From Thauera sp. 28 (GTDB lineage Bacteria > Pseudomonadota > Gammaproteobacteria > Burkholderiales > Rhodocyclaceae), in NCBI RefSeq assembly GCF_000310145.2, contig NZ_AMXA01000012.1:1-64000 (forward strand): a stretch of DNA of 64,000 nt. Reading direction: 5' to 3'. Under the pieces are notes generated by a model. That model ran no database searches. It was given only the letters and a program-made list of their open reading frames with translations, and had not been told where the DNA came from. Each line of letters starts with the position of its first letter. The first letter of the stretch is position 1. This document shows, piece by piece, positions 13,401-46,792 of the stretch. The position numbers and the translations under genes were made by a program.

Positions 13401-14096
13401 TCTGCAACGGCTATGAAGGGGGTGGCCGAGGCGGCCGAGGGGGTGTCGGTTTCGCTGGTGCAGGCTGCGCGTACGCACAACTCGTCGCTGGGGGCCGTTG
13501 CGGGTTCGTGGCTCGATGCTCGCATGGCTGCGAGCCGCTATGCCGATGAGGCGCGCCAGGCGGTGTTCGATGCAACGAAGTCGGTCGATGAGCTGCGCGC
13601 GGCCTTTGCGGGCTATGTGGCGCAGATGGACGCGCTCGATGCGCGCCAGCGTGCGCTCGATGGCGGGGCTCAGCGCGGGGTCGCGGATCTGCGGTTGCGC
13701 TTGCTGGAGCTGGAAGGCACTCAGGAGCAGGTTGCGCAGGCTCGCTATGCACGCGACAAGGAGGAGCGCGCGGCGCAGCTGGCACTGCTGGAGATCGAGA
13801 TCGAGCGGGCACAGCTGCGCGGCGACGGTGCAGCGGCCGAGCAAGCGCGGGCGCGCGTGGCGGCACTGCATGAGGAGCTGCGCCTGCTGGGCCGGATCCA
13901 TGAGGCGGAGCAGCGCCAGGTGTCTGCAGCGCGCGTGGCGCAGACAGGCGCCCCCTCGGGCACGCCTACTGCAGCGGCGGGTGATGTGCATGTGCACATT
14001 GCGGGGGTGCTGGATGTGAATGATCCGGTCACGCTCGATGCGCTGACGCGGAAGATCCGGCCGGTGCTGGGCGAGCTGGCGCGCAGGGGGGCGTGA
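10464..14096 (+). CDS. Phage tape measure protein
   Basis: 1210 aa, mostly helical. Residues ~150-370 are the conserved tape measure domain: AVAGVFAVGKLQGYARDAI, then AYGQMASRIEMAT, ASATYRPLAEAQELY and MPTVVDAIAKATGRSAAEI. An Ala-rich stretch and one hydrophobic segment (LTLAVSVVIELASKLLF, near residue 505) follow, then long coiled-coil-like repeats and a C-terminal VHVHIAGVLDVNDP module. It sets tail length and probably helps DNA entry. By the rough rule of 0.15 nm per residue it implies a tail of about 180 nm. ATG 10473 is an alternative start. Confidence 0.88.
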   Translation: MAGMANKLRTSLHVGIEVDDRRPLTDAADAVEAVSEAARTSAPGLDALAEAQQRVAHESEAAQAALDKIELDALAADIDRVGLDRFADELERLAVEGGAMAPQFAQAARELRALQAGADVGAAAVGRMGGEARDTQSELGALGNAAADLQTRLSGVAKAVAGVFAVGKLQGYARDAIAVADAYGQMASRIEMATRSSEEYDLVQARLLATASATYRPLAEAQELYIRTADALRSMGYETEQSLDITDSFSYLLVNNAASADKAAAAVDAYSKSIQRGKVDADAWATIMAAMPTVVDAIAKATGRSAAEIRALGVTGKLAVQELNEGLRQTVEANKAVADSMPTTVADALTRLSTVWGAYIGEANRASGATQRVVGLINAVTDNLDALVSTAMKAGNVLVAVFAARAVLAVQGYAAAALAAGKAVQATAAATAGQGAAAATAAPQVASAAAATAAHGRAAAGAAGAVGASAAATERQGAAAAAASRGVGGLARVLGALRFTGLTLAVSVVIELASKLLFAKSAAEQAAEAVTRVVEEADFSDADGVGAFIEQLEEVGRAADASGEQVEQALSARIKTLSGEQLAALRDGLVEAFRAGGEQAAALGVALGAVDARLADVAERANWGRTVATDAAAARFELTALQRTLRDVAGDAAGVGKALGEALTKADFGSADGVRAILADLQLVQDSALATGAQIEQALGDRLSQLSAKGLRELALQAEVALGRVQADAQAVAVAFAQGEVSADEHGQALARLAAESANLARINDQVLNASFARLGVNAAQAMGRISPAAKDAIDSVENIVAALTAAGTSAQQAGEAIAAALDQAVVRADSAQALEVLRAKVEAWGRAGTLSGAQVAAALDQIKSKSDALTPGINSAAEAMKRLGVVSDTELRRAADAARESYEAVRDMGGSVREQAEAFRVYAEAAIAANGGVATAALQVQAAQHGLRIEADEAGKTVVRSMKEAAEATAKLREQAEGSATAMKGVAEAAEGVSVSLVQAARTHNSSLGAVAGSWLDARMAASRYADEARQAVFDATKSVDELRAAFAGYVAQMDALDARQRALDGGAQRGVADLRLRLLELEGTQEQVAQARYARDKEERAAQLALLEIEIERAQLRGDGAAAEQARARVAALHEELRLLGRIHEAEQRQVSAARVAQTGAPSGTPTAAAGDVHVHIAGVLDVNDPVTLDALTRKIRPVLGELARRGA

Positions 14097-17000
14097 TGCA
14101 GTCAAGTTCGGCCAGCCGCATTTTGTGCAACCGCGACAACCTGGCGCGGGAGGCGACGATTACGGCCTCGGCGCAGCGCGCGAGTGACGACATCCGGTTG
14201 GAGGCGCAGGCGCGCCGGGGCGGCGGGCGCATGGCGCTGTCCGGCCCGTACCTGGGGGCAGAGGATGGCGTGATCGACGTCGAGGTGCTGAGCGGTACCG
14301 GTGGCGAGCTGGTGGCGTCTATGCCGGTGGTGCGCGGGGTGGGTAGTGGCGCGCTGACGGTGGAGTCGGTGGATGTGACGGCGGTGCCCGATACGGTGAC
14401 GTTCGCGTTGGTCGATAAGGGCACGCCGCCGGTGCCGGCGCAGCTGGAGTTCTACGGCGTGACGCTGGCCGCGCGTACACCGGGCCTGGTGGGTAACGCG
14501 CTGTCTGTGACGGTGACGCGAAACGTGGTGGCGACGCCGACGTCGTACGCGACGCTGGAGCCGATCAGCGCGGGCACGCCGCAGCTTGAGGGGGCGCAGT
14601 GGGACTGGGCGCAACCGGCAGCGGTGGATGCGGGGATTCCGCCTGGGGCGTTGCGGGTGCAGTTCGAGGGGTTTCCGGTCGTGCACCGGGCGTGGAAGGT
14701 GTGGGATCAGGGGCGCTTTGTGTTCCGTCTGGATCCGGTTCCGCCATATGACATTCCAGCAAACACGAGGGTGCTTGCGGTAAGCGGCGACTACACGCTG
14801 ACGCTGAGCGACGGCGTGCAGAGCGAGGTGTTTGCCGGGGTTGTGACGGTGTATGACTTCCTGGTGGCGGTCGATACGCGCAGTACGCTGGCGGAGGTGC
14901 GCGGGGTGGTTGCGCGCGATACGGCGCCGGGCGGGATGGCGGTAACGGAGATGCCGCTGCGCACCGATGCGCACCACCTGCCGCCGTCTGGGGGACAGGT
15001 GGTGGTGCATGGCGTGTCGCCGTCCGCCCCGACAGAGAACCTGGTGCTGGAGTATCTGGGTGCTGCGGCGCCTGGGCGGTGGCGGGTGTCGGGGTCGGTG
15101 AGCGGGGTGTTGCCGCAGGCGGCGACCGGGACGCTCTACGCCCATGGGCCCGTGTCGTTCACAGTTCAGGCGCTGGCGTCGGCCAGTCTGGGGGCGCGAA
15201 TCGATGCGCGCGCCCGCTTTGCGCCTCGCAGCGACGGCGAGGCGCTGCCCGCGGTTTGCTTCAAGCCCGTGATGCTGGGGGTGAGCGCCGTCGACAAGAC
15301 GGTGACTTTTAAGTGGACGCGGCGACCGAAGTCGAATTGCCGCTGCGACAACTTGCCGGCGCTGCGCTTGCCGGCGCTGTGCCTGGGCTTGGAGCCTGAT
15401 GGAGGTGGGATGATGCTGGAGCCGGAGTATCAGAGTCGGCTGCAGGGGCTGTACCAGTGGCGCGCTGCGTTTGCAGCAGCCAATACGTCGACGGGGCCTG
15501 ATGCCGTTGCCGTGGTGCAGGACCTGGATATGGCCGACCAGGTGGTGGCGCTGTTTGCGCGGACCTTGGCAGAAGTGCATGGCGATACGGGTGCCCGCGA
15601 TCTGTGGGACGCGTACCGTGTGACGATGCAGTCCGAGCTGGCGACGTTGCATGGCGTAGCGGGCTACCTGCCTGCACCGGAGGGGGCTGGCGACTCGACC
15701 GAACTCACGGCCTGGCGCGCGATCGTCGCTGCGGCGACGACTATCCAGGGTGGTGCGAAGGGCAGCGTGTACTACAACGCGGCCAACCAGCGCTACTACA
15801 GGCTAGAGCTGAGCCAGGTGGAGTTCTCACCGGCCGTGAGCGTGGGGTACCCGTGGGAACAGCCAACCGCCGGCCTGGTGCTGCCGTTCGGCTACTACTA
15901 CGAGACGACGACCGGTGTCGTGCCTACGGAGTGGGAATCCAGAACCTTTGAGCCCTTCGCGGATGCGGGGTGGGCGACGTCGGCGTCGCACATGCTGGAG
16001 CGTGCTGTGCCGCTATCGGCTTCGCGCGGTGGTCAGTTGCGGGTGAGGCTGTGGTACACGGACCTGGGGGCGCCGCCGGCGGGCCTGACAGGCAGCACTG
16101 ACGATGGGCCTCAGCATAACCTGAAGGTGGATTCGCCCGAACAGCTCGTGCGCCGTTACTCGGCGCAGATGGATCACGTCCTGACTGCGGCGGGCATCGT
16201 CCCAAAATCTGACGCCAGCAACAACACGGTAGCCGGGGACGGTTGCTGGCGCGACCCCGGCCACGATTTTTGGTGGGTCGATGAGTCCGGCGAGTATCTG
16301 CCGATCTTCAACAACACCCCGTACGTCTCGGCTGTCGTGCGCGATGGCGTCCCGGTGTCGACGCGCGAGTGGGGCGTGGGCGTGGTAACGCAGTGCGAAC
16401 ACCGCTTGCGTGAGGGCGATGAGATCACAATCAGAATCCGCGGGACCGGGCAGTCACTGCAGGCCGGTGACCGCATCGTGATCCCCGTTGTTGCGGCAGC
16501 GGCAGCTGCGTTCGGTGGTGGTGACGCCGGCGATGATACCCAGCGCTGGTCGGTGCGCAGTGCGGTGCTGGGCGTGTTGCCCGATTGGCTGAGATCGCCA
16601 GGCGACGGCGCGCCGCATTCGGCAGGGGCGCTGACCGTGCGCCTGGCAGATGGCGCGCTGCCGTGGGAGGTGGGTGACACGATTCGGGTGGAGCTCGAGG
16701 GCGGGCGCCTGCGCTGGCGGCGAGACGGGGGCACATGGGTCGAGGCCGACATCTTCGGGCCTGCGCTCGATCTGGGCGACGGCCTGCTGCTCGATGCGGC
16801 CCCCGGGGCGGCCCCTAGCTTTGCGGCCGGCGACTCCTGGCAGTTTCGGGCGCTGGCGACACACGGGGTGTCGCGGCTGCGTCAACCGCGAGTGGGGCGT
16901 GGCTTCGCGTGGTTGGGCGATACGGTGACGCTGGACCTGGACCTGGGCGCGTTGCATGACGTGGAGTGCGTCATGCTGGGGCTGCACACGCTGCCTGCCG

Positions 17001-35990: not shown

Positions 35991-36980
35991 TCAGATCACC
36001 TTGGCGCGCATCAGGTCGTGAGTCGTGAGCGCGCCGACGAGACGGTTGTCGCCGTCGACCACCAGCAGCTGGCTGATGCGCAGGCGCTCCATGACCTCGG
36101 CGGCTTCGGCCGCCAGGGCCTGGGGGCCGATGTTGCGCGGATTGTGGCTCATCACCGCGGTCACGTGCGCGCTGCGCACGTCGCAGCCTTTCTCGAGCGC
36201 GCGGCGCAGGTCGCCATCAGTGAAGATGCCCTGCGGCCGATCGTCGCTGTCAACGATGGCGGTCATGCCCATGCCACCGGCTGTCATCGCCAGCAGGGCG
36301 CTGCTGAGCAGGGCGTCGGGGCGCACGCGCGGTACGGCGTCGGCGGGGCGCATCACGTCGGCGACGTGGGTGAGCAGGCGACGACCGAGTGCACCGCCCG
36401 GGTGCGAGCGTGCAAAGTCCTCCGCGGCGAAACCGCGCGCGTCGAGCAGGGCAACTGCGAGTGCATCGCCAAGTGCGAGTGCGGCGGTCGTGCTGGCGGT
36501 GGGGGCGAGGTTGAGCGGGCAGGCTTCCTCGGCGACGGCGGCGTCGAGGTGGACGTCGGCCTGTACCGCGAGCGGCGACTCCGGTCGTCCCGTCATCGAG
36601 ATCAGGCGTGCGCCCTGGCGCTTGACCAGCGGCACGATGGTGAGCACCTCCTCGCTCGTCCCCGAGTTCGACAGGGCGATGACGACGTCTTCGGGGGTGA
36701 TCATGCCGAGGTCGCCGTGTGCAGCTTCGGCGGCATGCACGAAGTAGGCGGGCGTGCCGGTGCTCGCGAGCGTAGCCGCGAGCTTGCGTGCGATGTGCCC
36801 GGACTTGCCGATACCGGTGACGATCACGCGCCCGTGGCGCTGGCGGATGATGTCGACGGCACGCTCGAAGTCTGCGCCGATGCGGTCGGCAAGGGCGGCG
36901 ACTGCATCGGCCTCGATGCGCAATACCCGGCGGGCGAGGGCGACGGCGCGGCTGTCACCCGTTTCTGGAGTTGAGTCCAT
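35991..36980 (-). CDS. kdsD: Arabinose-5-phosphate isomerase KdsD
   Basis: 329 aa. Makes arabinose-5-phosphate for Kdo synthesis. N-terminal SIS domain (RVIVTGIGKSGHIARKLAAT, HGDLGMITPEDVVIALSNSG) then two CBS domains (VADVMRPADAVPRV..., VTAVMSHNPRNIGPQALAAE...). The pattern matches the KdsD/GutQ family and the length is usual. Start ATG 36980 (MDSTPETGDS) is chosen; ATG 36989 is possible. The partner phosphatase kdsC, often next to it, is absent here. Confidence 0.93.
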   Translation of the reverse strand: MDSTPETGDSRAVALARRVLRIEADAVAALADRIGADFERAVDIIRQRHGRVIVTGIGKSGHIARKLAATLASTGTPAYFVHAAEAAHGDLGMITPEDVVIALSNSGTSEEVLTIVPLVKRQGARLISMTGRPESPLAVQADVHLDAAVAEEACPLNLAPTASTTAALALGDALAVALLDARGFAAEDFARSHPGGALGRRLLTHVADVMRPADAVPRVRPDALLSSALLAMTAGGMGMTAIVDSDDRPQGIFTDGDLRRALEKGCDVRSAHVTAVMSHNPRNIGPQALAAEAAEVMERLRISQLLVVDGDNRLVGALTTHDLMRAKVI

Positions 36981-37089
36981 GCGGTCCATGCTTGAGACTG
37001 GCGGGGGCGGGGTGCGACGCGCATGGAATGTATCGCTGCGCGCAGCACCGTGTGCGAGCCCCCGATTGTATATCAAGCGCTACCCGTGC

Positions 37090-37728
37090 TCAGAGACTGG
37101 CGCAGACGGTGTGGCTGGCGCTGTCGTCGAGCGGATTGGTTGCCGAGATCGGCACCAGTGCGCCTTCGCCAGCCGTGCCGGCGCGCATTGATCCAGTTGC
37201 CGGGTTGCCATCGTCGAGCGCGATGTCGAGTTGGCGCACCAGCTTGCCGACGATTGCGTCCGAGCACACGACCATCGCGCCGGGGATGCCCAGCACGGTG
37301 CCGCCGCGCTGGACGCCGACCCTGCCGCCGACCGCATTGCGCGGCAGGAAGCCGGCATCGTCTGGGTCGGTGCTGCCGCTGGCGACGTTGGCGAGGCGCA
37401 AGTGCTGCCAGAAGCGCACGCTCTCGCTGCCGCTGCTGTCGTCCCAGTTGCCATCGATGACGCCGTTGCCGTTGCCGAGGGCTGTGCACTCGCTGCTGCT
37501 TGGGCACAGATGCATGCGTGCATTACGGTCGTCGCCGGGCAGGGCGCGGTACTTGTCCTGGTAGGCATGGACCATCGCGGGGATGCTGCGGAAATCCTGG
37601 CCGAGGTTCTTCACCTTGGCACTGTCGATCAGTTCCTGCCCCTTCATGACGCCGCCGAGCAGCAGGCTGACGACGAGCAGCACGATGGCGATCTCGACGA
37701 GGGTGAATCCGTCCTGTTTGGTGTTCAT
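37090..37728 (-). CDS. Prepilin-type protein, probable major pseudopilin
   Basis: 212 aa. Short basic leader then the prepilin cleavage site and methylation motif GFTLVEIAIVLLVVSLLLGG. The globular part has conserved-looking Cys pairs (CPSSSECTALGNGNGVIDGNW..., VVCSDAIVGKL) and repeated Asp/Gly loops, like type II/IV pilin-like proteins that bind calcium. Last gene of the minus-strand secretin operon, 45 bases after the previous pilin gene. The classical GspG calcium-binding signature is not clear. Confidence 0.85.
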   Translation of the reverse strand: MNTKQDGFTLVEIAIVLLVVSLLLGGVMKGQELIDSAKVKNLGQDFRSIPAMVHAYQDKYRALPGDDRNARMHLCPSSSECTALGNGNGVIDGNWDDSSGSESVRFWQHLRLANVASGSTDPDDAGFLPRNAVGGRVGVQRGGTVLGIPGAMVVCSDAIVGKLVRQLDIALDDGNPATGSMRAGTAGEGALVPISATNPLDDSASHTVCASL

Positions 37729-37773
37729 GGTGGTCTCCTTCGATGGTGGATGAAAAACACGGATATCCTTGCC

Positions 37774-38490
37774 CTACAGTCGTCCGCCCTGTGCCAGGCG
37801 GGCAATCAGCAACGGCCGGCCGAGCCAGGCGAGCAGGTCGTCGTAGTCGGGTGTGGGCGGGCCTGCCTGGTAAAGAGGGGCGGTTACGGTGTAGCTGGCG
37901 TTGAGGCCGTCGGCTCGCCGGTTGGGGCCGGTGGAGTAGACGATGGCGACGGCCTGCGAATCGGAGGTCGTGATGCGGCTGCCGTCGTGGCCGCGGATCT
38001 GAAGGTTGGCCGATGGCAGGGTGGCGGCGGTGATCGGGGCCTCGGCGAAGCGCGGGTCGACGCGGTAGTGCCAGTGCCCGCCCCAGTCGTCGCCCACCGC
38101 AGTGCGTAGTGAGCCCCACGCGTCGGTGGCGGGCACGGCCAGGCTGCGCCAGGGCAGGCGGCCTTCGCTTGCGAAGCTGCACGGCGCCGGGTCCTCGATG
38201 CCATAGAGCGGACTGGCGGGGTCGGTGGTGGTACTCGGGCAGGGCAGACGGCCGTGGATGAGTGCGAAGCCGATGAGGGCGTGCTGGATGTCGCCGAGGC
38301 GTTCGAGGCTGGCCTGGCGGTCGCGGGCGTCCATCCGGCTGCCCAGTGGCACCAGCAGGCCTGCACCGAGTACGGCGAGGATGACGAGGACCATGGCCAA
38401 CTCCACGAGGGTGAAGCCGCGGCCTCGGGGGTGTCGCGCAAGGGCTCGCTTCGGCCTCTCGATAGCGCGGAGCGGGGGCGTCTGTGTCAT
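37774..38490 (-). CDS. Prepilin-like protein with LPCP/GRLPWR domain (first copy)
   Basis: 238 aa. Prepilin N-terminus GRGFTLVELAMVLVILAVLGAG follows a 24-residue basic leader. The globular part has FALIHGRLPCPSTTT..., SEGRLPWRSLAVPATDAWGS and a later SRITTSDSQAVAIVYSTGP block. The neighbour at 38487-39722 has the same blocks in the same order, so they are related passenger domains. Four-base overlap with the upstream gene. Minor-pilin role in the operon is inferred. Confidence 0.8.
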   Translation of the reverse strand: MTQTPPLRAIERPKRALARHPRGRGFTLVELAMVLVILAVLGAGLLVPLGSRMDARDRQASLERLGDIQHALIGFALIHGRLPCPSTTTDPASPLYGIEDPAPCSFASEGRLPWRSLAVPATDAWGSLRTAVGDDWGGHWHYRVDPRFAEAPITAATLPSANLQIRGHDGSRITTSDSQAVAIVYSTGPNRRADGLNASYTVTAPLYQAGPPTPDYDDLLAWLGRPLLIARLAQGGRL

Positions 38491-39722
38491 GACAGGCAGC
38501 GGACGATGTCTTGCACTGCCGGTTGTCCGCGCTCGTGGGCCGCGAAGCGCTCGGCGCCCTCGAAGCGAGGAACGCCGGCCTTGAGGTGGAGCGCGTTCGT
38601 GCCCTCGAAGTACTGTGCGGGATCGGCGCGCTGGGCGGCGGTTGCGCGCAGTTGGCGGCCAGCGCCGTGACGGATGCGTTCGCCGGCGAACAGCAGCGCC
38701 GCGCGGCAGTGCCGGGTGGTGGCAGTGTCTGAGGAGGTGATCTCGATGCAGGCGTCGCTGTCGGTGCAGATGGCGACGCGGATCTGGTCGCGCCAATGGT
38801 CGATGCGCGCCCGCTCGGCCGCGGGCAGTCCCAGGTCGGCGGCGTTGGGCAGGACGCCGGAGCGCAGTGCGCCGACCTCCGTGTCGAAATGGCGGTGAGT
38901 GAAGTCAGGTTCGGCGAGGCGAGCATCGAGCGCGGAGGCGATGTCCGAGATGAGCGCGTCGATCCGTGCCGCGTGGTCGGCGCGTCGGCGCAGGGCGTCG
39001 AAGATGTCGTCGATGCCGATCCAGGCGATCAGGTCGGCGCCCGGCAGATTACCCCCCGAGAACACGTCGAGTGTGCCATCCACCGTGGCCGGATAGTCGC
39101 CATCGAGGTAGTGCGCGAGATCGGCGACGGCCGAGTCGCCGCCGGGGCAGGTGCGACCGCTCGCAGGTGCGCGCACTTGGCCGGCCATTGCGGGCCCTGG
39201 GGCGAAGACGATCGCGACGGCGCGCCCGTCCGGTCCGGCGGCGGCGATCCGGTGGCCGTCCGCGCCGTGCACGACGAACTGGCCCGGACTGTCCCAGTTC
39301 AGCATGAGCGCCTTGGGGTTGTGCTTGACGCTGCCGGCGACGGCGTACCACAGGCATTCCCCCCAGCCGTCGCGCAGGTCCGGGAGGCCGAGCGTCCGCC
39401 AGGGCAGGCGGCCGATCGCGCCCTGACCGCGGGCGCCGCAGGCGCCGATCGGTGTCGAGCCGGTGTTGCCGCTGTCCGGGCAGGGCAGGAATCCGTAGCC
39501 CTCGCCCGGGTGGCTCTCGTCATAGCTGACGGCGTAGCCGATGAGCGCTGCGCGCGCCTGGGCGAGAGCGATGACGCTGCGGGCGTGGGTGAGCATGGTG
39601 GCACGCGTGCGCAACTCACCAGCGCCGAGCAGGGCGCCCGCTCCCAGTACCAGCAAGAGCACGAGTGCTGCGAGCAGGGCCTGCCCACCGTGCGCTCGAG
39701 GTGGTGATGGATGTGCGCTCAT
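38487..39722 (-). CDS. Large pilin-like protein with LPCP/GRLPWR domain (second copy)
   Basis: 411 aa. N-terminal hydrophobic segment GGQALLAALVLLLVLGAGALL occupies the pilin helix position, but the canonical G-F-T-L-x-E site is missing, as in MshP/PilX-type or tip pilins. The globular part repeats the neighbour's blocks: GFLPCPDSGNTG..., AIGRLPWRTLGLPDLRDGW, and DGRAVAIVFAPGP, then an extra C-terminal half with ITSSDTATTRHC and several Cys. Probable tip or minor component. ATG 39722 overlaps the previous stop. Confidence 0.72.
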   Translation of the reverse strand: MSAHPSPPRAHGGQALLAALVLLLVLGAGALLGAGELRTRATMLTHARSVIALAQARAALIGYAVSYDESHPGEGYGFLPCPDSGNTGSTPIGACGARGQGAIGRLPWRTLGLPDLRDGWGECLWYAVAGSVKHNPKALMLNWDSPGQFVVHGADGHRIAAAGPDGRAVAIVFAPGPAMAGQVRAPASGRTCPGGDSAVADLAHYLDGDYPATVDGTLDVFSGGNLPGADLIAWIGIDDIFDALRRRADHAARIDALISDIASALDARLAEPDFTHRHFDTEVGALRSGVLPNAADLGLPAAERARIDHWRDQIRVAICTDSDACIEITSSDTATTRHCRAALLFAGERIRHGAGRQLRATAAQRADPAQYFEGTNALHLKAGVPRFEGAERFAAHERGQPAVQDIVRCLS

Positions 39723-41095
39723 TGTCGTGCGTCCTCGTCGGAGGTGTCGTGTGCGGTCGTGGCGGGGGCAGGCCAGAGGTCGCCGACGCGCAGCCGGGGG
39801 GCGCTGAGGCCGCTGGGAGCAAGCGCGGGTTCGTTGCCCGGCACCATCCTCAGGCCGGCCTGCGCAGGCTCGATGGGTTTGCCGTCGAGCCATATGGTGT
39901 GACGGCCGTCGGGGCGCCTGAGAACGCCGTCGATGCGTTTCGGCTCGGGCACTTGCACGCGTGCGGCGGGGGCTGGCGTGGGCGCGGCTGGCAGGGGGGG
40001 CTGCGGCGCGGCGGTTGCGACCGGCTCGGGTGGTGGGGCGAGGTCGTCGGGAGGCGCAGACGCGGCGTCGTGTGTCGGCTGCGCGGGCACAGCTTCGAGG
40101 GGGGACGGGCGTGCGCTGTGCTCGGCACCGGCACGCGCTGCAGCCTGGGCGTGCAGCCAGTATCCGGCGCCCAACGCCAGGCAGGCTGCGAGCAGCCCGC
40201 CACCGAGCAGGAGCCCGCCTGGGCGGCGTGGCGCCGACGCTGCGGCCCAGCCCAGGCGGGCGGGTGCCCGGCGCAGGGCGTGCAGCAGTAGCGGCGCGAG
40301 TTCGTCGGCTGTGGTCGGTGCATCCGTGTCGTCGCGCATCCGGTTGGGGCCGAGGCGCTCGGATGGAATGAAGGTGATTGACGGGTCATCTTCGGTGACG
40401 GCGGCCGTGGTGTGGAACTGCTCGGGGGTGCCGATGACGAGTGCGTCGAGTGCGTCTTTGCTGGCCACACGATGCTGGGCGCGCAGGTAGTTGCGTGTGC
40501 GTGCGAGTTCGTCCTGCCACGCTGCCGAATGGCCTACGATGCGCGAGAACAGCGCCTGGCCGTGCATGAGGAGGCTGATGCGCAGGCCGGCGCGCGTGCG
40601 GCCGAGCACCATCACCTGTGCTCGCGTACCGACGGCCCGGGCGTGGAGATGGGCCAGCAACTCCGCCGCGGGTACGATGCGTTCGACGCGACGGCCGGTT
40701 GCGCGCAGGGGGTCTATCCAGGCCTGCAGCGTTGCGGGTTGGTTGAGGCCGGAGAACAGCATGCGTTCGCGACCGGGCGTTGTCTGGCCGCTCGTGTCGT
40801 CGAGCCTGATGGCACGTGCGTAGGCGGGGTCTGGGAACCAGGCGGCCAGCCTGCGCGTGATCAGTGCGCGTCGATCGGCTCCGCGAACGCGCGGGATGTC
40901 CTCGCTCTCGTAGGCCTCATCGGCCAGGTCGACCAGAAGCCTGCATGGGGCGCGGGTGGGGCGCTCTTCCAGCCAGGCTCGGAATGCGGGCTGTGCAGTG
41001 CTGTCGAAGACGGCGACCCGGATGACTTCGTTTTCATGCACTTGCCATGCGTCGAGGCCGAGTTCATCGATGCGGAGCAGCAGTGGTGTGCGCAT
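39719..41095 (-). CDS. GspL/MshI-like assembly protein with extra C-terminal GspC/MshK-like domain
   Basis: 458 aa bitopic inner-membrane protein. Residues 1-~270 look like the cytoplasmic actin-like domain of GspL/PilM/MshI (MRTPLLLRIDELGLDAWQV..., LLVDLADEAYESEDIPRV, RAQVMVLGRTRAGLRISLL). A membrane helix (GGLLLGGGLLAACLALGAGY) follows at ~295. After a Pro-rich linker the last ~65 residues (KRIDGVLRRPDGRHTIWLDG...LRVGDLW) resemble the homology region of GspC or MshK. Such a fusion could replace separate GspL/M/C proteins. Domain calls are by pattern. Confidence 0.65.
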   Translation of the reverse strand: MRTPLLLRIDELGLDAWQVHENEVIRVAVFDSTAQPAFRAWLEERPTRAPCRLLVDLADEAYESEDIPRVRGADRRALITRRLAAWFPDPAYARAIRLDDTSGQTTPGRERMLFSGLNQPATLQAWIDPLRATGRRVERIVPAAELLAHLHARAVGTRAQVMVLGRTRAGLRISLLMHGQALFSRIVGHSAAWQDELARTRNYLRAQHRVASKDALDALVIGTPEQFHTTAAVTEDDPSITFIPSERLGPNRMRDDTDAPTTADELAPLLLHALRRAPARLGWAAASAPRRPGGLLLGGGLLAACLALGAGYWLHAQAAARAGAEHSARPSPLEAVPAQPTHDAASAPPDDLAPPPEPVATAAPQPPLPAAPTPAPAARVQVPEPKRIDGVLRRPDGRHTIWLDGKPIEPAQAGLRMVPGNEPALAPSGLSAPRLRVGDLWPAPATTAHDTSDEDARQ

Positions 41096-41101
41096 CGCGG
41101 A

Positions 41102-42298
41102 TCAGACCGGCAGGCGGGTGATGATGTCGTAGATCGGCCCCAGCACTGCGCTGGCGATCCAGAGCAGCAGGCCACCCATCAACAGGGTGAGTGCGGGTTC
41201 GGCCACCGCCTGCAGGCGAGCCGTGCCCTCGCTGACGTCGCGCTGGTAAAGCTCGCCGAGCTTGTGGAGGGCGTTGTCGAGGCTGCCTGTCTGTTCGCCG
41301 AGGGCCAGCATGCGGGTGACCAGAGGCGGGAAGATGCCTGCGGCCTCGAAGGCGGTCGAGATGGGGCGGCCGCGCTCGATGGCGTCCCGCGCGCTGCGCA
41401 GGCCTTCGCGCAGGGCCAGGTTGCCGGTGGCGCCCTCACTCGCGCGCAGTGCGTCAATGACGTTGATCCCGGCGGTGTAGAGGGTTGCGAAGAGGCCGGC
41501 AAAGCGTGCAAGCGCGAGTTTGCGCAGGATGTCGCCGACTACGGGCAGGCGCAGGATGAGTGCGTCGGCGTGGGTGCGCAGCCTTGCCGAGAGGGCCAGC
41601 ACCTGCCATGACGCACCCATGCCGGCACATAGCGCCAGCAGCGCGTAGCCGCCCCAGTCGCGCACCGCCTGTGACAGGCCGACGAGCAGCCGTGTCTGCA
41701 GCGGCAGTACTTGCCCACTGCTGCGCAGCAGCTTCTCCAGTTCGGGTACGACCTGGGTGAGGGCGACGACCACGGCCAGCAGCAGCACGCTGGCGACGAT
41801 CGCCGGGTAGATCGCGATCCGGCGTGCGTGCGCGGCGAGCGCCTCGTCGCGCGCCAGGGCGCTGCCGATGTCGCGCACGGCCTCGGGCAGGCGCCCGGCT
41901 TCTTCGCCCGCGCGCAGCAGGCTGACGGCGACGGCCGAGAACGCGCCCGGCTGGCGGGCCGCCGCTTGCGACAGGGGGCAGCCGTTCTCGATGTCGTCGA
42001 GCAGCCCCGAAACCATATTCTTGACCCGGCTGTCGGGGTGTGAATCGCGCAGCACGGCGAGGCTCTCGAACGGGGGGACACCGGCACCAAGTAGCTGTTC
42101 GAGCTGGTAGCAGAAGGGGATCAGCTCGCGCCGCGGCAGGCGCCGCCGTGGCAGCATCATGCGGCAGGGCTCGCCGTTGATGAGTTGGAGCCCGCTTGCG
42201 TGCAGGCGCTGCTCGAGGTCGCGCAGGTCCGTGGCTTCCATGCGGCCGCGTTGACGCGTGCCGGAGAGGGTGAGCGCACGGTATCTGAAGAGGGTCAT
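41102..42298 (-). CDS. GspF/MshG-type inner-membrane platform protein
   Basis: 398 aa. Polytopic platform of type II secretion and type IV pili, which couples the ATPase to pilin assembly. Two GspF domains: IPFCYQLEQLLGAGVPPFESL...RVKNMVSGLLDDI and LARFAGLFATLYTAGINVIDAL...RMLALGEQTGSLDNAL. Three main hydrophobic helices (IAIYPAIVASVLLLAVVVAL; YALLALCAGMGASW; LTLLMGGLLLWIASAVLGPI). ATG 42298 overlaps the ATPase gene stop by four bases. Confidence 0.92.
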   Translation of the reverse strand: MTLFRYRALTLSGTRQRGRMEATDLRDLEQRLHASGLQLINGEPCRMMLPRRRLPRRELIPFCYQLEQLLGAGVPPFESLAVLRDSHPDSRVKNMVSGLLDDIENGCPLSQAAARQPGAFSAVAVSLLRAGEEAGRLPEAVRDIGSALARDEALAAHARRIAIYPAIVASVLLLAVVVALTQVVPELEKLLRSSGQVLPLQTRLLVGLSQAVRDWGGYALLALCAGMGASWQVLALSARLRTHADALILRLPVVGDILRKLALARFAGLFATLYTAGINVIDALRASEGATGNLALREGLRSARDAIERGRPISTAFEAAGIFPPLVTRMLALGEQTGSLDNALHKLGELYQRDVSEGTARLQAVAEPALTLLMGGLLLWIASAVLGPIYDIITRLPV

Positions 42299-43995
42299 GC
42301 GCACGCCCCGCGCGCGGCCGCCTTGCCTGCCTGGCCCAGATCGACCACGCGCGCCAGTTCGTGAAGGGAGGTGGTGCCGTCGGCCACGCGGCGCAGACCG
42401 TCTTCGAGCAGGCTGCGATGCCCTGCCTCGCGCGCCGCGGCCTGGAGCATGCCGGGGCTGGCTTTGCGCGCAATGAGCTCGTCGAGCTCGGGCGTGAGAT
42501 GCAGGATCTCGAAGATGGCGCGCCGCCCGCGATAGCCGCGGAAGTCGCAGGCCGGGCAGCCTGCGGCGCGGTACAGAGCGGGGGTGGCGGTGTCGGTGGC
42601 GAGGCCGAGCAGTGCGCGCTCGGCCCCGTCCGCGACATGGGCTGTGCGGCAGTGGGGGCACAGGCAGCGCACCAGGCGCTGGGAGAGGATGCCGGCGAGG
42701 TTGCCTGCGAGCAGTTCGGCGTTGAGTCCGATGTCCAGCAAGCGCGGCAGGGCGCCGAATACCGAGTTCGCATGCAGGGTGGCAAACACCTGGTGGCCGG
42801 TGAGTGCCGCGCGCAGGGCCATTGCGGCGGTGTCGGCGTCGCGGATCTCGCCGACCAGGATCACGTCGGGGTCCTGACGCAGCAGGGCGCGCACGCCGTC
42901 GGCAAAGCCCAGGCGGGCGGCATCGCCGATCTGCGTCTGGCGGATCATGGCGAGCGGATACTCGACCGGATCCTCCAGGGTCATGATGTTGACCGCCTCG
43001 GTGTTGAGGTGGTTGAGGATGGAGTAGAGCGTAGTGGTCTTGCCGCTCCCGGTTGGCCCGACAACGAGGGTGAGTCCGTCGGGGCGGCCGAGGATGCGCG
43101 CGAGCGTGGCCGCCTGGTCCTTGTCCAGGCCGAGCGCGGGAAGGGGGACGATGCCCTTGTCGCGGTCGAGAATGCGCAGCACGATGTTCTCGCCATGCAA
43201 GGTCGGCTGGGTGGCGACGCGGAAGTCGATGGCGCGGCCGCCGACGGCGACGCTGATGCGGCCGTCCTGGGGGCTGCGCGATTCGGCGATGTCCAGGCCG
43301 GCCATGACCTTCAGGCGCACGGCGAGCTCCGGCCAGCATGCCTTGTGGATTGCCCGTACCTGGCGCAGTGTGCCGTCGATGCGGTGGCGGATGCGCAGAA
43401 ATGCGGGTTCGGGCTCGAAGTGGAGGTCGGATGCGCCGCGCGCGGCAGCGTCGGCGAGGAGCGCATCGACGAGGCGCACGACCAGCTGTCCGTCGCGCAC
43501 CTCGGACGGTGTGCGCGATTCGAGCGCCCGCACAAGATCCTCGATCGAGCCTGCTTCACCGTAGTGGTGGTCGATTGCGCGGCCCAGCTCGGTGTCGCCG
43601 GCCAGCCGGAGTTCGATGTGCACGTCGGGGCCCAGCTCGCCACGCAGGCGGTCGAGGGCGACGATGTCATGCGCATCGGCCATGGCGACGATCAGGCGGT
43701 GGCGAGCGGCATCGTATTGCAGTGGAAGCAGGCGGTGGCGGCGGGCAAGTGCCTGCGGTACGCGAGCGACGGCGTCGGGGTCGGCGAGTGCAACCGAGAG
43801 ATCCACGAAGGGCAGCCCGCTGCGTGTGGCGAGGGTCTCACGCAGGGCTGCCTCGCTGACGAAGCCCATGTCTACGAGCACCCGACCGAGCGGCTGGCGG
43901 CGCGCGGGCTGTTCGCGCAGGGCGATGCGCAGCTGATCCTCGCCGATGAGGCCGGCGGCGAGCAGGGTCTGGCCAATGGATTGGGGTGCGTTCAT
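42295..43995 (-). CDS. GspE/MshE-type assembly ATPase
   Basis: 566 aa hexameric ATPase driving pilus or pseudopilus assembly. Residues ~1-150 are an MshEN domain (PLGRVLVDMGFVSEAALRETL, SGLPFVDLSVAL), a fold known to bind c-di-GMP. The core has Walker A GPTGSGKTTTLYS (~315), Asp box, Walker B (DPDVILVGEIRDADTAAMAL) and a zinc-binding CPHC...CPAC pair (~465-500). Complete and intact. Four-base overlaps on both sides with the secretin and platform genes. Confidence 0.93.
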   Translation of the reverse strand: MNAPQSIGQTLLAAGLIGEDQLRIALREQPARRQPLGRVLVDMGFVSEAALRETLATRSGLPFVDLSVALADPDAVARVPQALARRHRLLPLQYDAARHRLIVAMADAHDIVALDRLRGELGPDVHIELRLAGDTELGRAIDHHYGEAGSIEDLVRALESRTPSEVRDGQLVVRLVDALLADAAARGASDLHFEPEPAFLRIRHRIDGTLRQVRAIHKACWPELAVRLKVMAGLDIAESRSPQDGRISVAVGGRAIDFRVATQPTLHGENIVLRILDRDKGIVPLPALGLDKDQAATLARILGRPDGLTLVVGPTGSGKTTTLYSILNHLNTEAVNIMTLEDPVEYPLAMIRQTQIGDAARLGFADGVRALLRQDPDVILVGEIRDADTAAMALRAALTGHQVFATLHANSVFGALPRLLDIGLNAELLAGNLAGILSQRLVRCLCPHCRTAHVADGAERALLGLATDTATPALYRAAGCPACDFRGYRGRRAIFEILHLTPELDELIARKASPGMLQAAAREAGHRSLLEDGLRRVADGTTSLHELARVVDLGQAGKAAARGACA

Positions 43996-45740
43996 GGCGT
44001 GGTGATTGGCATCGCCGTGGCGGCTGGGGAAGCAGCCGGCAGCACTGTGGGGCGCAGCGGCATGGTGGGAAAGTTGCGCTGACCGGGCGAGGGGGCGCGG
44101 GTGAAGAAGTCGTCGGCGGGGAGGTGTGTGGCGTAACCGGCGTAGTCGCCGTGAATTCCGGGTTCGGAGATCAACAGCGGACGCAGGAAGATGAGCAACT
44201 CGGTGCGGCGCACTGCGTTGGCGCGGCGAGTGAATAGTTCGCCGACCACGGGTAGGTCGCCGAGCAAGGGGATACGGCCGGTATCGAGGTCGACGCGGTC
44301 TTCCATGAGGCCGCCGAGCACGGCGGTTTCGCCGCTGCGCAGGCGCAGCATGGACTCGATCTCGCGCGTGCGGATCTGCGGCACGCGATTTGGAATGCTG
44401 CGCAGCGAGGGGTTGGGGTCGTCCTTGAAGCCCGAGATGCCGGAGATGGTGGGGCGCACGTTGAGGGTGATCTCGCCGTTGGCACTGATCTGTGGCGTGA
44501 CCGACATCACCATGCCGACCGAGACCGACTGCGGGGTGGTGGTTGCGGTGATGCGCGATTGTTGGCGGTCGTCATACTCGGTGGTCGTGCTGTCGACCAG
44601 GAAATACACCACTTCCTCGACCACCTTGAGCATGGCCGTCTGGTTGTTGAGCACAGAAAGGCGCGGGCTGGAAAGGACCTTCACCGTGCCGAAGGTCTCG
44701 AGCAGCTCGATCTGCACGTCTGCACTCGATGACAAGTAGCTGAGCGTGGGCAGTCCGCTTGCGGCATCGCCCGTGCCGCGCGGGCGCACGTTCCAGCCCG
44801 GCACGCCGATACGCGTCCAGTCGATGCCTTGGCGGTAGCCGTCCGCAAGCGTGACCTCGACGATGGTGGCTTCGATCATGACCTGTCGGCGCGCTGCTTG
44901 CTGGACCTGGTCCAGGAAGGCCTTCAGGTGTGCGTGCTGGCGTGCACTTGCACGTGCGGTGACGACGCCGCTCTCGCGGTTGACCATGACGTCGGCGCTG
45001 CACGGACCGGCGCTGTTGGTGCGGCAAGGACGGGGCGTGCCGCCAGCCTCCTCGAGGATTGCGCCCAGGCTGATCTCGAGCGAGTTCCAGAAGTCGTTGC
45101 TGGCGCGGGTCTCGATCTGGGTCACCGAGGTGTTCCCGGCGGTGTTGGCAGCGCCCTGCTGGTGGGCGCCCGTGGTGGCGATCTGCGTGCTGGTGGCGAC
45201 CGAGCCGCGCATCTCGCGGCTGAGGTTTACGTAGTCGAGGGCGTAGCTGCGGATGAATGGGGTGTCGGGACGGACCGAGAGATGGCGACCGCGCAATTCG
45301 TAGCGGATCTCTGCCTGTGCCGCGATGCGTTCGAGCAGCAGACCGAGTGGCTGGCCGGCCGCATGGATGGTGACCCGGCCCTCGATGCCCGGGTGGAGGT
45401 CGAGTTCGAGCCCGGCGTCACGGCCGATCGCGAACAGCAGTTGGTGTACGGGCAGGTCGTTGACCGACAGGGAGTAGGTTTCGACAGGCTCGGGTGCTGC
45501 CGCGTCGATGCCGGGGGTGGAGGTGCCCGTCCAGCCCGTGGCGGGCGTCGGCTCATGCGTTGGCGCTGTTTCTTCGGCGGTCTGCGTTGCTGCAGGGGAG
45601 GTGGCGAGCGCAGCCGTACCCGTGGCGTGGAGGTGCCCCGGTGGCAGCCGGGCGGGGGCGAGTGGGGTGCATCCGGCGATCAGCGCGGAGACCATGGCCA
45701 TGCCAGCGAGACGAGCAGGGGCGAAGGTGCATCGGGTCAT
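43992..45740 (-). CDS. MshL-like outer-membrane secretin
   Basis: 582 aa. Signal peptide with a lipoprotein Cys (MAMVSALIAGCTPLAPA; outline), then an STN/N0-like domain (LSVNDLPVHQLLFAIGRDAGLELDLHPG...), an N1-type part, and the secretin pore domain: RRQVMIEATIVEVTLADGYRQ, GTVKVLSSPRLSVLNNQTAMLKV, TLNVRPTISGISGF and a C-terminal TELLIFLRPLLI. MSHA MshL proteins have this layout. First gene of the operon. Confidence 0.9.
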   Translation of the reverse strand: MTRCTFAPARLAGMAMVSALIAGCTPLAPARLPPGHLHATGTAALATSPAATQTAEETAPTHEPTPATGWTGTSTPGIDAAAPEPVETYSLSVNDLPVHQLLFAIGRDAGLELDLHPGIEGRVTIHAAGQPLGLLLERIAAQAEIRYELRGRHLSVRPDTPFIRSYALDYVNLSREMRGSVATSTQIATTGAHQQGAANTAGNTSVTQIETRASNDFWNSLEISLGAILEEAGGTPRPCRTNSAGPCSADVMVNRESGVVTARASARQHAHLKAFLDQVQQAARRQVMIEATIVEVTLADGYRQGIDWTRIGVPGWNVRPRGTGDAASGLPTLSYLSSSADVQIELLETFGTVKVLSSPRLSVLNNQTAMLKVVEEVVYFLVDSTTTEYDDRQQSRITATTTPQSVSVGMVMSVTPQISANGEITLNVRPTISGISGFKDDPNPSLRSIPNRVPQIRTREIESMLRLRSGETAVLGGLMEDRVDLDTGRIPLLGDLPVVGELFTRRANAVRRTELLIFLRPLLISEPGIHGDYAGYATHLPADDFFTRAPSPGQRNFPTMPLRPTVLPAASPAATAMPITTP

Positions 45741-45930: not shown

Positions 45931-45939
45931 TGATACAAT
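45931..45939 (+). promoter_or_regulatory. Extended -10 promoter element of the mla operon
   Basis: TGATACAAT has the extended -10 form TG-N-TACAAT. Transcription would start near 45946, leaving a short leader before GTG 45971. No good -35 box is visible at 16-18 bases upstream, consistent with an extended -10 promoter. Confidence 0.55.
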
Positions 45940-45970
45940 GCGAAGCTTTTTTCAGTCCCGTCTACCTCTC

Positions 45971-46792
45971 GTGTCCCTTCCCCCCGAGCCCTCCGCCCCG
46001 CTGGTTTCGCTGCGCGACGTGCGTTTCGCCTATGGCGAGCGTCAGGTCCTGCGCGGCATCGATCTGAGCGTGCACCGCGGCCAGGTGGTGGCCATCATGG
46101 GGGGCAGCGGTTGTGGCAAGACCACGCTGCTGCGACTGATCGGCGGGCAGCTGCGCGCTTCGTCGGGTGCGGTCGAGGTCGAAGGGCGCAACATGGCGAG
46201 CCTCTCGGGTGCGGAGCTTTATGCGCTGCGCCGGCGCATGGGCATGCTGTTCCAGTTCGGTGCGTTGTTCACCGACATGAGCGTGTTCGACAACGTCGCT
46301 TTTCCGATGCGCGAGCACACCAGCCTGCCCGCAGGCATGATCCGCGACCTGGTGATGATGAAGCTGCAGGCCGTTGGGCTGCGCGGCGCGGCGACACTCA
46401 GCCCGGGCGAGCTTTCGGGCGGCATGGCACGTCGCGTGGCGCTGGCGCGGGCGGTGGCGCTCGATCCGATGCTGATTCTGTATGACGAGCCCTTCGCCGG
46501 CCTCGACCCGATCTCGCTGGGCATCATCGGCCAGCTGATACGGCGGCTCAATGACGCGCTCGGAGCAAGCTCCGTGATGGTTACCCACGACGTGCATGAG
46601 TCGCTCGAGATCGTGGACTACATCTACTTCGTCTCCGACGGCCGCATCGTCGCGCGCGGAACGCCGGATGAGATTCGTGCTTCCAGCGACCCCTTCGTGC
46701 ACCAGTTCGTCAATGCCGAGGCCGACGGTCCGGTGCCTTTCCATTACCCGGCGCCACCGATCGACAGCCTGCTCGGCGGGAGGGGCGTATGA
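45971..46792 (+). CDS. mlaF: Phospholipid transport ABC ATPase MlaF
   Basis: 273 aa from GTG 45971. Energises the Mla system that keeps the outer-membrane lipid balance. Walker A GGSGCGKTTLLRL (~43), Q-loop LFQFGALFTDMSVFDNV, signature LSGGMARRVALARA (~152), Walker B LILYDEPFAGLDPIS and H-loop VMVTHDVHESLEI. A longer start at ATG 45938 falls inside the -10 promoter element and would not be in the transcript. Four-base overlap with mlaE. Confidence 0.93.
   Translation: MSLPPEPSAPLVSLRDVRFAYGERQVLRGIDLSVHRGQVVAIMGGSGCGKTTLLRLIGGQLRASSGAVEVEGRNMASLSGAELYALRRRMGMLFQFGALFTDMSVFDNVAFPMREHTSLPAGMIRDLVMMKLQAVGLRGAATLSPGELSGGMARRVALARAVALDPMLILYDEPFAGLDPISLGIIGQLIRRLNDALGASSVMVTHDVHESLEIVDYIYFVSDGRIVARGTPDEIRASSDPFVHQFVNAEADGPVPFHYPAPPIDSLLGGRGV

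Follow-up and report, generated by a model that had tools for sequence, protein, structure and literature searches.

Background

The closest described relative of the locus reported here is the mannose-sensitive hemagglutinin (MSH, or T4eP) pilus. The locus is a seven-gene operon of Thauera sp. 28 on the minus strand, at positions 37090–45740 of the 64,000-nucleotide stretch that we analysed and call the window. In the MSH model of Denise 2019, as given in the parts of that paper on gene content (PMC6668835), MshA, MshE, MshG, MshL and MshM are mandatory, with a quorum of three mandatory genes and four in all, and all MSH loci are stated there to lack a prepilin peptidase. A 2023 review (PMC10191384), in its passages on these systems, has MSHA arise through the loss of PilT and the acquisition of MshN; it also describes Com pili as managing without PilMNOP-like proteins, which may only stabilise the ATPase and the platform protein.

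The Thauera locus resembles the MSH pilus in having MshL, MshE with an MshEN domain, MshG, MshI- and MshK-like parts and pilins at one locus without a peptidase, in line with the same parts of PMC6668835. It differs in that MshM, MshN and MshJ were not found, in that MshI, without its periplasmic part, is joined to MshK in one protein, and in having three prepilins. In pili and in the type II secretion system (T2SS), a periplasmic dimer of the PilN–PilO type is thought to be central, and in GspC of the T2SS a small secretin-binding domain follows the transmembrane (TM) helix. With the PilMNOP alignment complex of type IVa (T4a) pili, the Thauera locus shares a PilM-like actin domain and an MshK in the position of PilP, but PilMNOP consists of four proteins, whereas here there is one chain and no PilN–PilO type pair was found in the locus. 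With GspL it shares an actin-like domain joined to a TM helix; unlike GspL, GspM and GspC, however, the Thauera protein would carry both functions on one chain with one TM helix, and its model contains no ferredoxin-like periplasmic domain. The T4b proteins TcpR/TcpD and the Com pilus likewise involve fewer inner-membrane connector proteins, but in the relevant passages of PMC10191384 TcpRD are described as replacements without homology and Com pili as a monoderm system, whereas the reduction described here is traceable within one genus.

We consider it likely, from sequence comparison, that the locus encodes an MSH-type pilus machine that has undergone secondary reduction, its inner-membrane connector having shrunk to a single chain. 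A reduced machine of the MSH type is in itself nothing unusual. The new part is the one-chain stand-in for a PilMNOP-type connector, caught together with matched sister species; that the machine builds a pilus we infer. Full-text searches of open-licence PMC listed no paper on a fused MshI–MshK, nor on MSH pili in Thauera. Thauera bears on why PilMNOP-like proteins are required in evolved type IV machines, because it offers a matched pair inside a single genus: I, J and K are separate in 13 genomes, and in another 13 J is gone and I and K are fused. Swaps between such close relatives could reveal which of the contacts, that of motor with chain or that of chain with gate, must stay, making the genus a natural test of which pilus parts are truly needed. 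It is also a warning, since annotation by separate MshJ/K or GspC/M/N genes would label such machines incomplete.

A fused MshI–MshK protein

The bitopic protein (P0001) and its parts are as follows.

39719..41095, minus strand: MshI–K fusion, bitopic, P0001, 458 amino acids (aa); outside-genus MshI and MshK profiles match in one open reading frame (ORF)
40256..41095, minus strand: PilM/GspL-like actin-fold cytoplasmic domain, residues 1–280 (AlphaFold model, Foldseek)
40115..40219, minus strand: predicted membrane-spanning helix, within residues 293–327 (model helix; hydropathy peak 1.76 at 293)
39941..40108, minus strand: Pro/Ala-rich tether, residues 330–385, disordered in the model (block means of the predicted local distance difference test, pLDDT, 43–52 over residues 331–380)
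39761..39940, minus strand: MshK-like beta domain, residues 386–445 (pLDDT block means 85–93 up to residue 440)

Profiles were built solely from sequences outside the genus and were run on the 26 Thauera genomes with a P0001 match, which contain 27 loci (two of them, L130 and L151, cut upstream of MshI). The single ORF of the window matches positions 1–327 of 510 in the MshI profile and 76–150 of 171 in the MshK profile. With the AlphaFold model (mean pLDDT 83), Foldseek ranked PilM structures first (5eox, 5eou and 2ych; E from 3.7e-12, TM-score 0.34–0.41 by query length), followed by the cytoplasmic domains of EpsL, PulL and GspL. Three Lys/Arg residues lie in the 15 residues before the TM helix and one after it. 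Among the 13 fused rows the N side has the excess in ten, the two sides are equal in two, and the N side has fewer in one, a distribution that by and large agrees with an N-in, C-out topology. The linker of P0001 is 27% Pro and 30% Ala; in the 12 fused proteins where it could be measured, the tether spans 46–92 residues with 18–38% Pro.

The initial annotation had reported MshJ, K, M and N as absent. This holds in so far as J, M and N were not found, but MshK is present as the C-terminal domain of the bitopic protein: when the K portions of eight fused proteins were aligned, profile to profile (hhalign), with eleven MshK proteins encoded separately, the probability was 99.4 and E was 6.6e-22. 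An N-terminal MshK segment (GRLFxTPxxR-like) occurs in all 13 separate MshK proteins of Thauera, in 20 of 22 outside the genus and in none of the 13 fused proteins, of which that of G366 is visible only to residue 367. Judged by eye, the MshK signal peptide has also been lost from the fused protein. A plasmid search with P0001 gave no match.

Fused and separate genes within Thauera

Searches for relatives of P0001 were positive for 107 of 200 genomes at the level of the order, 117 of 150 at that of the family and 26 of 29 at that of the genus, the genome of the window being counted each time; with the bitopic gene in 26 of the 29 genus genomes, the locus is not a product of chance. The 26 divide equally. 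Separate MshI, MshJ and MshK occur in 13 (G333, G344, G346, G349, G350, G354, G355, G357, G359, G360, G362, G363 and G368), and the fused form in the other 13 (G000, which is the genome of the window, G245, G345, G351, G352, G353, G356, G358, G361, G364, G365, G366 and G367). The fused ORFs cover only about the first 228–369 of the 510 MshI positions and then continue into the K domain. The frame is open in 12 genomes where the gene lies on a single contig; in G366 a contig break falls between the two halves, which are presumed to be joined. The MshK profile itself matches ten of the 13 fused proteins, and in G364, G353 and G356 the K domain was recognised by alignment and motif only. Across the 29 whole genomes the MshJ profile finds a match in every one of the 13 separate genomes. 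In the fused genomes there is no match save for a fragment of 20 bits in G361, which contains two stops and which we count as chance.

Three genus genomes (G347, G297 and G348) have no P0001 match. In G297 and G348 the pilin end of the operon lies at contig ends, so that MshI is unseen, and their pil1 pieces are nearest to those of the fused species G353 and G356.

In a sample of 399 genomes of the order, MshI was found in 192 and MshJ in 189. Comparison of the printed lists gave ten genomes with MshI but without MshJ: G000, G052, G091, G101, G134, G190, G341, G377, G432 and G516. Of these, G052, G091 and G516 have sequences that end at or near contig edges, and in G101, G134, G190 and G377 a local MshJ-like ORF is present; G341 keeps a PilN-like MshI tail and an MshJ-like ORF, both judged by eye. 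No second, independent MshI–K fusion was found in these samples (the 399 order genomes, with G432 left out).

The operon and its MSH ancestry

The remaining features of the operon are given below; a slash marks the presumed processing site of a prepilin.

43992..45740, minus strand: MshL-like secretin, 582 aa (PF00263 137.8 bits; TIGR02519 MshL 238.7 bits, cut-off 250.2)
42295..43995, minus strand: MshE-like extension ATPase, 566 aa, with an N-terminal MshEN domain of the cyclic di-GMP (c-di-GMP) type (PF00437 406.4, PF05157 60.7)
41102..42298, minus strand: MshG-like inner-membrane platform protein, 398 aa (PF00482 145.9 bits, two stretches)
38487..39722, minus strand: pil1 (P0002), large prepilin-like protein, 411 aa (N-terminus GG/QALLAALVLL; orthologues aligned)
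37774..38490, minus strand: pil2, minor prepilin, 238 aa, G/FTLVE motif (N_methyl 27.1, cut-off 21.2, in a Pfam test run one codon short, as 37774–38487; start read from the sequence)
37090..37728, minus strand: pil3, likely major pilin, 212 aa (N_methyl 25.8, cut-off 21.2)
37735..37740, minus strand: AAGGAG, likely ribosome-binding site of pil3 (from the sequence)

Seven minus-strand genes with several four-base overlaps had been described in the initial annotation, and this description is confirmed: all seven ORFs are intact, and such overlaps occur at four junctions (MshL/MshE, MshE/MshG, bitopic gene/pil1 and pil1/pil2). Its assignment of a secretin, an ATPase, a platform protein, a bitopic protein and three pilin-like proteins agrees with Pfam, which recognises Secretin, T2SSE with MshEN, T2SSF and, in two of the three pilin-like proteins (pil2 and pil3), N_methyl. 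Neither P0001 nor pil1 matched a Pfam family above cut-off, and pil1 likewise had no NCBIfam match.

Several results connect the core proteins with the MSH lineage. The ATPase matches NF053729 of NCBIfam at 57.2 bits (cut-off 38), and the best match of its N-domain among the N-domain entries of the PDB is Vibrio cholerae MshE (5htl, 58.5 bits), ahead of the PilB N-domain (9g1w, 40.2). In an ATPase tree, the check proposed earlier, it groups with the MshE proteins of related loci, apart from the GspE and PilB of its own genome, with support of 82/97; this tree has 22 rows, an MshE branch that is not starred, long branches among the other rows and no full-length Vibrio MshE. The nearest NCBIfam model of the secretin is MshL, and the secretin of the relative G246 clears that cut-off with 261.7 bits. 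The earlier description of the operon as reduced and MSHA-like is borne out. By gene content, the locus shows MshE, MshG, MshL and a likely major pilin from the mandatory set of Denise 2019, with no match to the MshM-like profile in the 27 genus loci; it contains no prepilin peptidase. T4a pili have separate PilM, N, O and P, where the locus has one fused protein, and the score of the ATPase with the T4a PilB model is 469.8 against a cut-off of 675.65. Both MshEN motifs of the ATPase are recognisable, with Arg replaced by Ser in the first and, in the second, Arg by Pro and the last Gln by Arg. The relaxed search motif, as it appears in the relevant part of PMC5013675, permits Pro and Arg at those positions, but not Ser.

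Another reading, which we regard as unlikely, is that of a small type II-like secretion machine, in which a short pseudopilus drives a protein out by way of the MshL-like gate, without a long pilus being made. The ATPase and platform protein do score best against the GspE and GspF models, but all T2SS models remain below cut-off (GspE 481.6/630.25, GspF 273.6/424, GspD 153.3/351.35). There is no PilT-type gene among the seven, and pil1 lacks Glu5 after its presumed processing Gly, as GspK does. Elsewhere in the genome, however, at C18, a T2SS cluster encodes a secretin, an ATPase and a platform protein and has Pfam matches to T2SSL, T2SSM and T2SSC; among the seven proteins Pfam finds neither T2SSC nor T2SSM. 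The grouping of the ATPase with the MshE of relatives, the best match of its N-domain and the affinity of the secretin to MshL also speak against a secretion machine.

Origin, flanks and selection

In a tree of MshL, MshE and MshG, which leaves out the gene that carries the trait, 12 fused rows lie on one side of a branch with a bootstrap value of 100 and an SH-like approximate likelihood ratio test (SH-aLRT) value of 100, and a quick tree gave the same; G358, on a short contig without these genes, is absent. The fusion gene thus looks like the product of one origin, as far as these sequences go. Pairwise ratios of nonsynonymous to synonymous substitution rates (dN/dS) are 0.36–0.52 for the fused gene (five pairs) and 0.29–0.47 for separate MshI (three pairs); some rows for MshG, MshE and MshK use over-long starts, and the MshG row of G245 is spoiled by a split frame. 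On these estimates purifying selection acts on the fused gene about as strongly as on separate MshI.

Two flanking genes lie outside the machine.

35991..36986, minus strand: kdsD-like gene (82–83% identical copies in G347 and G348)
45938..46792, plus strand: mlaF-like gene on the opposite side (ORF; adjoins kdsD in the operon-less G347)

Among the 27 genus loci, kdsD lies in the same stretch as the operon in 22 and mlaE, which follows mlaF, in 24. Both flanks are present in 21, and in G366 they lie on two contigs; these counts, scored by presence alone, fit a fixed chromosomal place. The corresponding site in G347 (L177 9485–11518) is clean and empty, the MSH operon being gone and the matches to mlaF and kdsD lying about 250 bases apart.

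A proposed one-chain connector and the points against it

The reduction is, as read from gene content, a loss of MshM, MshN, MshJ and the apparently PilN-like part of MshI, in steps visible in sister species. Sequence comparison shows that mshI, mshJ and mshK became a single gene in an ancestor of one Thauera clade. From MshI it kept the actin-like cytoplasmic domain and the TM helix and lost the periplasmic part; MshJ disappeared entirely, and MshK was deprived of its N-terminal part, with the signal peptide and the GRLFxTPxxR segment, so that the MshK beta domain is now tethered by the Pro/Ala-rich linker. The actin-like domain may dock on the ATPase MshE in the way that GspL docks on GspE, while the PilD-type peptidase encoded at C2 would process the prepilins. 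MshE and MshG would then build a fibre of pil3 that pil1 and pil2 would prime and whose tip they would form, and the fibre would exit through MshL. Binding of the MshK domain to the periplasmic end of MshL would allow the one chain to align motor and gate without a heterodimer of the PilN–PilO type. The role is probably surface attachment, and c-di-GMP might tune MshE through the MshEN domain, although the motif arginines are replaced. On balance, by a narrow preference, we favour the wider proposition that in this diderm type IV filament one chain of actin-like domain, TM helix, tether and secretin-binding domain replaces PilM/N/O/P, and that the PilN–PilO dimer is dispensable for the link between motor and gate.

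Alternatively, the fused connector might borrow PilN and PilO of the T4a pilus in place of the missing periplasmic dimer; the genome does have a pilM-N-O-P cluster, with a secretin, at C4 (Pfam PilM_2, PilN, PilO and PilP above cut-off). This is improbable in our view, because the fused chain no longer contains the PilN-like part with which PilO would pair, and sister species retain MshJ at the same place.

A number of observations weigh against a reduced MSH-type machine with a one-chain connector. Pilus assembly, docking partners and function are deduced from protein families. For the MshI region missing from the fused chain, the best two of 177,635 PDB sequences were PilN and the periplasmic part of GspL, at E of 0.016 and 0.15, a hint that this lost part might be PilN-like. 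By hhalign, the MshI and MshJ profiles had no significant match to the single PilN, PilO and GspL of the genome itself, and Pfam gave no PilN or PilO match for the MshI and MshJ proteins tested. The MshK domain has no PDB match, and hence its proposed PilP/GspC-like role follows from gene order and name; a PDB sequence search with the MshJ and MshK profiles gave chance-level matches only.

The MSH assignment has its own difficulties. The secretin stays below the MshL cut-off, and the MshM-like AAA profile matched neither strand of the 27 genus loci, to which the search for MshM was confined. The MshN profile, for a gene said to mark the MSH lineage, also had no match in these loci; genome-wide it matches all 29 genus genomes, but only partially, in the tetratricopeptide-repeat (TPR) region and at no more than 62.2 bits, and none of the matches listed reaches the first 129 profile positions. 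Because MshL is below the NCBI cut-off and MshN and MshM were not found, we regard the locus as descended from the MSH lineage in reduced form and not as a standard member.

Nor do the flanks settle the matter of one origin. For kdsD and mlaE (mlaF was left out of these tests), without G348 and the outgroup G246, one fused clade is not rejected (approximately unbiased test, p-AU 0.47), but it appears in 36% of bootstrap trees, which amounts to no support, and even on the best tree of the flanks two changes are required. If G348 is scored as unfused, a single fused clade is rejected (p-AU 0.0015); the flank tree places G348, whose fusion state is unseen, beside the fused G353.

Finally, G347 has lost the whole operon, and in the fused genome G245 MshG is split over two frames (L071 12230–13479). 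Together with the stepwise loss of parts, these two cases would suit an operon in decay, with the fusion as a deletion scar. We give this very little credence, since the fused chain is open in the 12 single-contig genomes and is under purifying selection much like separate MshI, fused proteins at 40–43% identity with P0001 have unbroken frames, and the seven ORFs of the window are intact. The initial reading of the genes as other than fragments of a decayed operon stands. In G345, the sister of G245, MshG is in one frame, and the split in G245 is a frameshift or a sequencing error.

Prepilins

Of the three prepilins, pil1 is likely a tip or minor pilin and pil3 likely the major pilin, 'major' being a presumed rank. 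The predicted structure of pil1 has a mean pLDDT of 54, with about 50–64 in the N-terminal helix and confident stretches only after about residue 250. The initial annotation had listed three pilins in its description of a reduced operon, but 23 loci outside the genus contain exactly three prepilin-like ORFs in 12 cases, four in one and fewer in ten, several of the last being cut by stretch or contig ends. As three are common in relatives, the filament part is not visibly reduced beside them. In some relatives the pil1 orthologues lie within ORFs of about 890–1290 aa (L099 from 5677, L101 from 4271, L187 5391–8078), which are possible tip adhesins.

MSH loci outside Thauera

The 23 outside loci were picked from P0001 matches, in many cases on the strength of a separate protein similar to the C-terminal piece of P0001, and the sample therefore favours loci with a separate MshK; some are cut by contig or stretch ends. 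The fullest order (L073) is MshM-like AAA, MshL, MshN-like TPR, MshE, MshG, MshI, MshJ, MshK, pil1, pil2, cyclase, HATPase and pil3, with the HATPase protein gene on the other strand. MshI, MshJ, MshE and MshG are present in 23 of 23 loci each, MshK in 22, MshL in 21, MshN in 20, the AAA gene in 13, the HATPase-type gene in 11 and the cyclase-type gene in 10. The order MshL-E-G-I-J-K-prepilins, together with fuller forms, is found in these loci of other genera. AAA and MshN are both missing from L076; in L077 and L078 AAA is missing and MshN is short; and L084 has no MshN, although that locus starts just before MshL; from these patterns, losses of M and N also occur outside Thauera.

Between pil2 and pil3 of L073, Pfam (applied to this locus only) identifies an adenylate/guanylate-cyclase gene and a HATPase_c protein (12904–14217 and 14193–15986); the cyclase-type and HATPase-type profiles matched neither strand of the 27 Thauera loci. 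The best model for the MshM-like AAA protein of L073 (866–2341) is the XrtA/PEP-CTERM system ATPase TIGR03015, at 208.9 of 324.5 bits. In L075 (G233), MshL, N, E, G, I and J are present, and MshK and prepilins were not found within the 20-kb stretch.

Other machines in the genome

The whole genome has one match to PF01478, a PilD-type prepilin peptidase at C2:148900, in agreement with the early suggestion that the machine borrows a peptidase encoded elsewhere. Its absence from the operon had also been counted as a sign of reduction, which does not hold, MSH loci in general being without one according to the parts of PMC6668835 that deal with them. At C15 there are a Tad-type RcpC/CpaB and a platform protein, and also a secretin. 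An orphan T2SSE-type ATPase with GAF and MshEN domains, beside which no platform protein or secretin was recognised, lies at about C12 69813–73862 (L091 6813–7544 and 8265–10862), 6–10 kb past the window end and directly after an FHA-domain gene.

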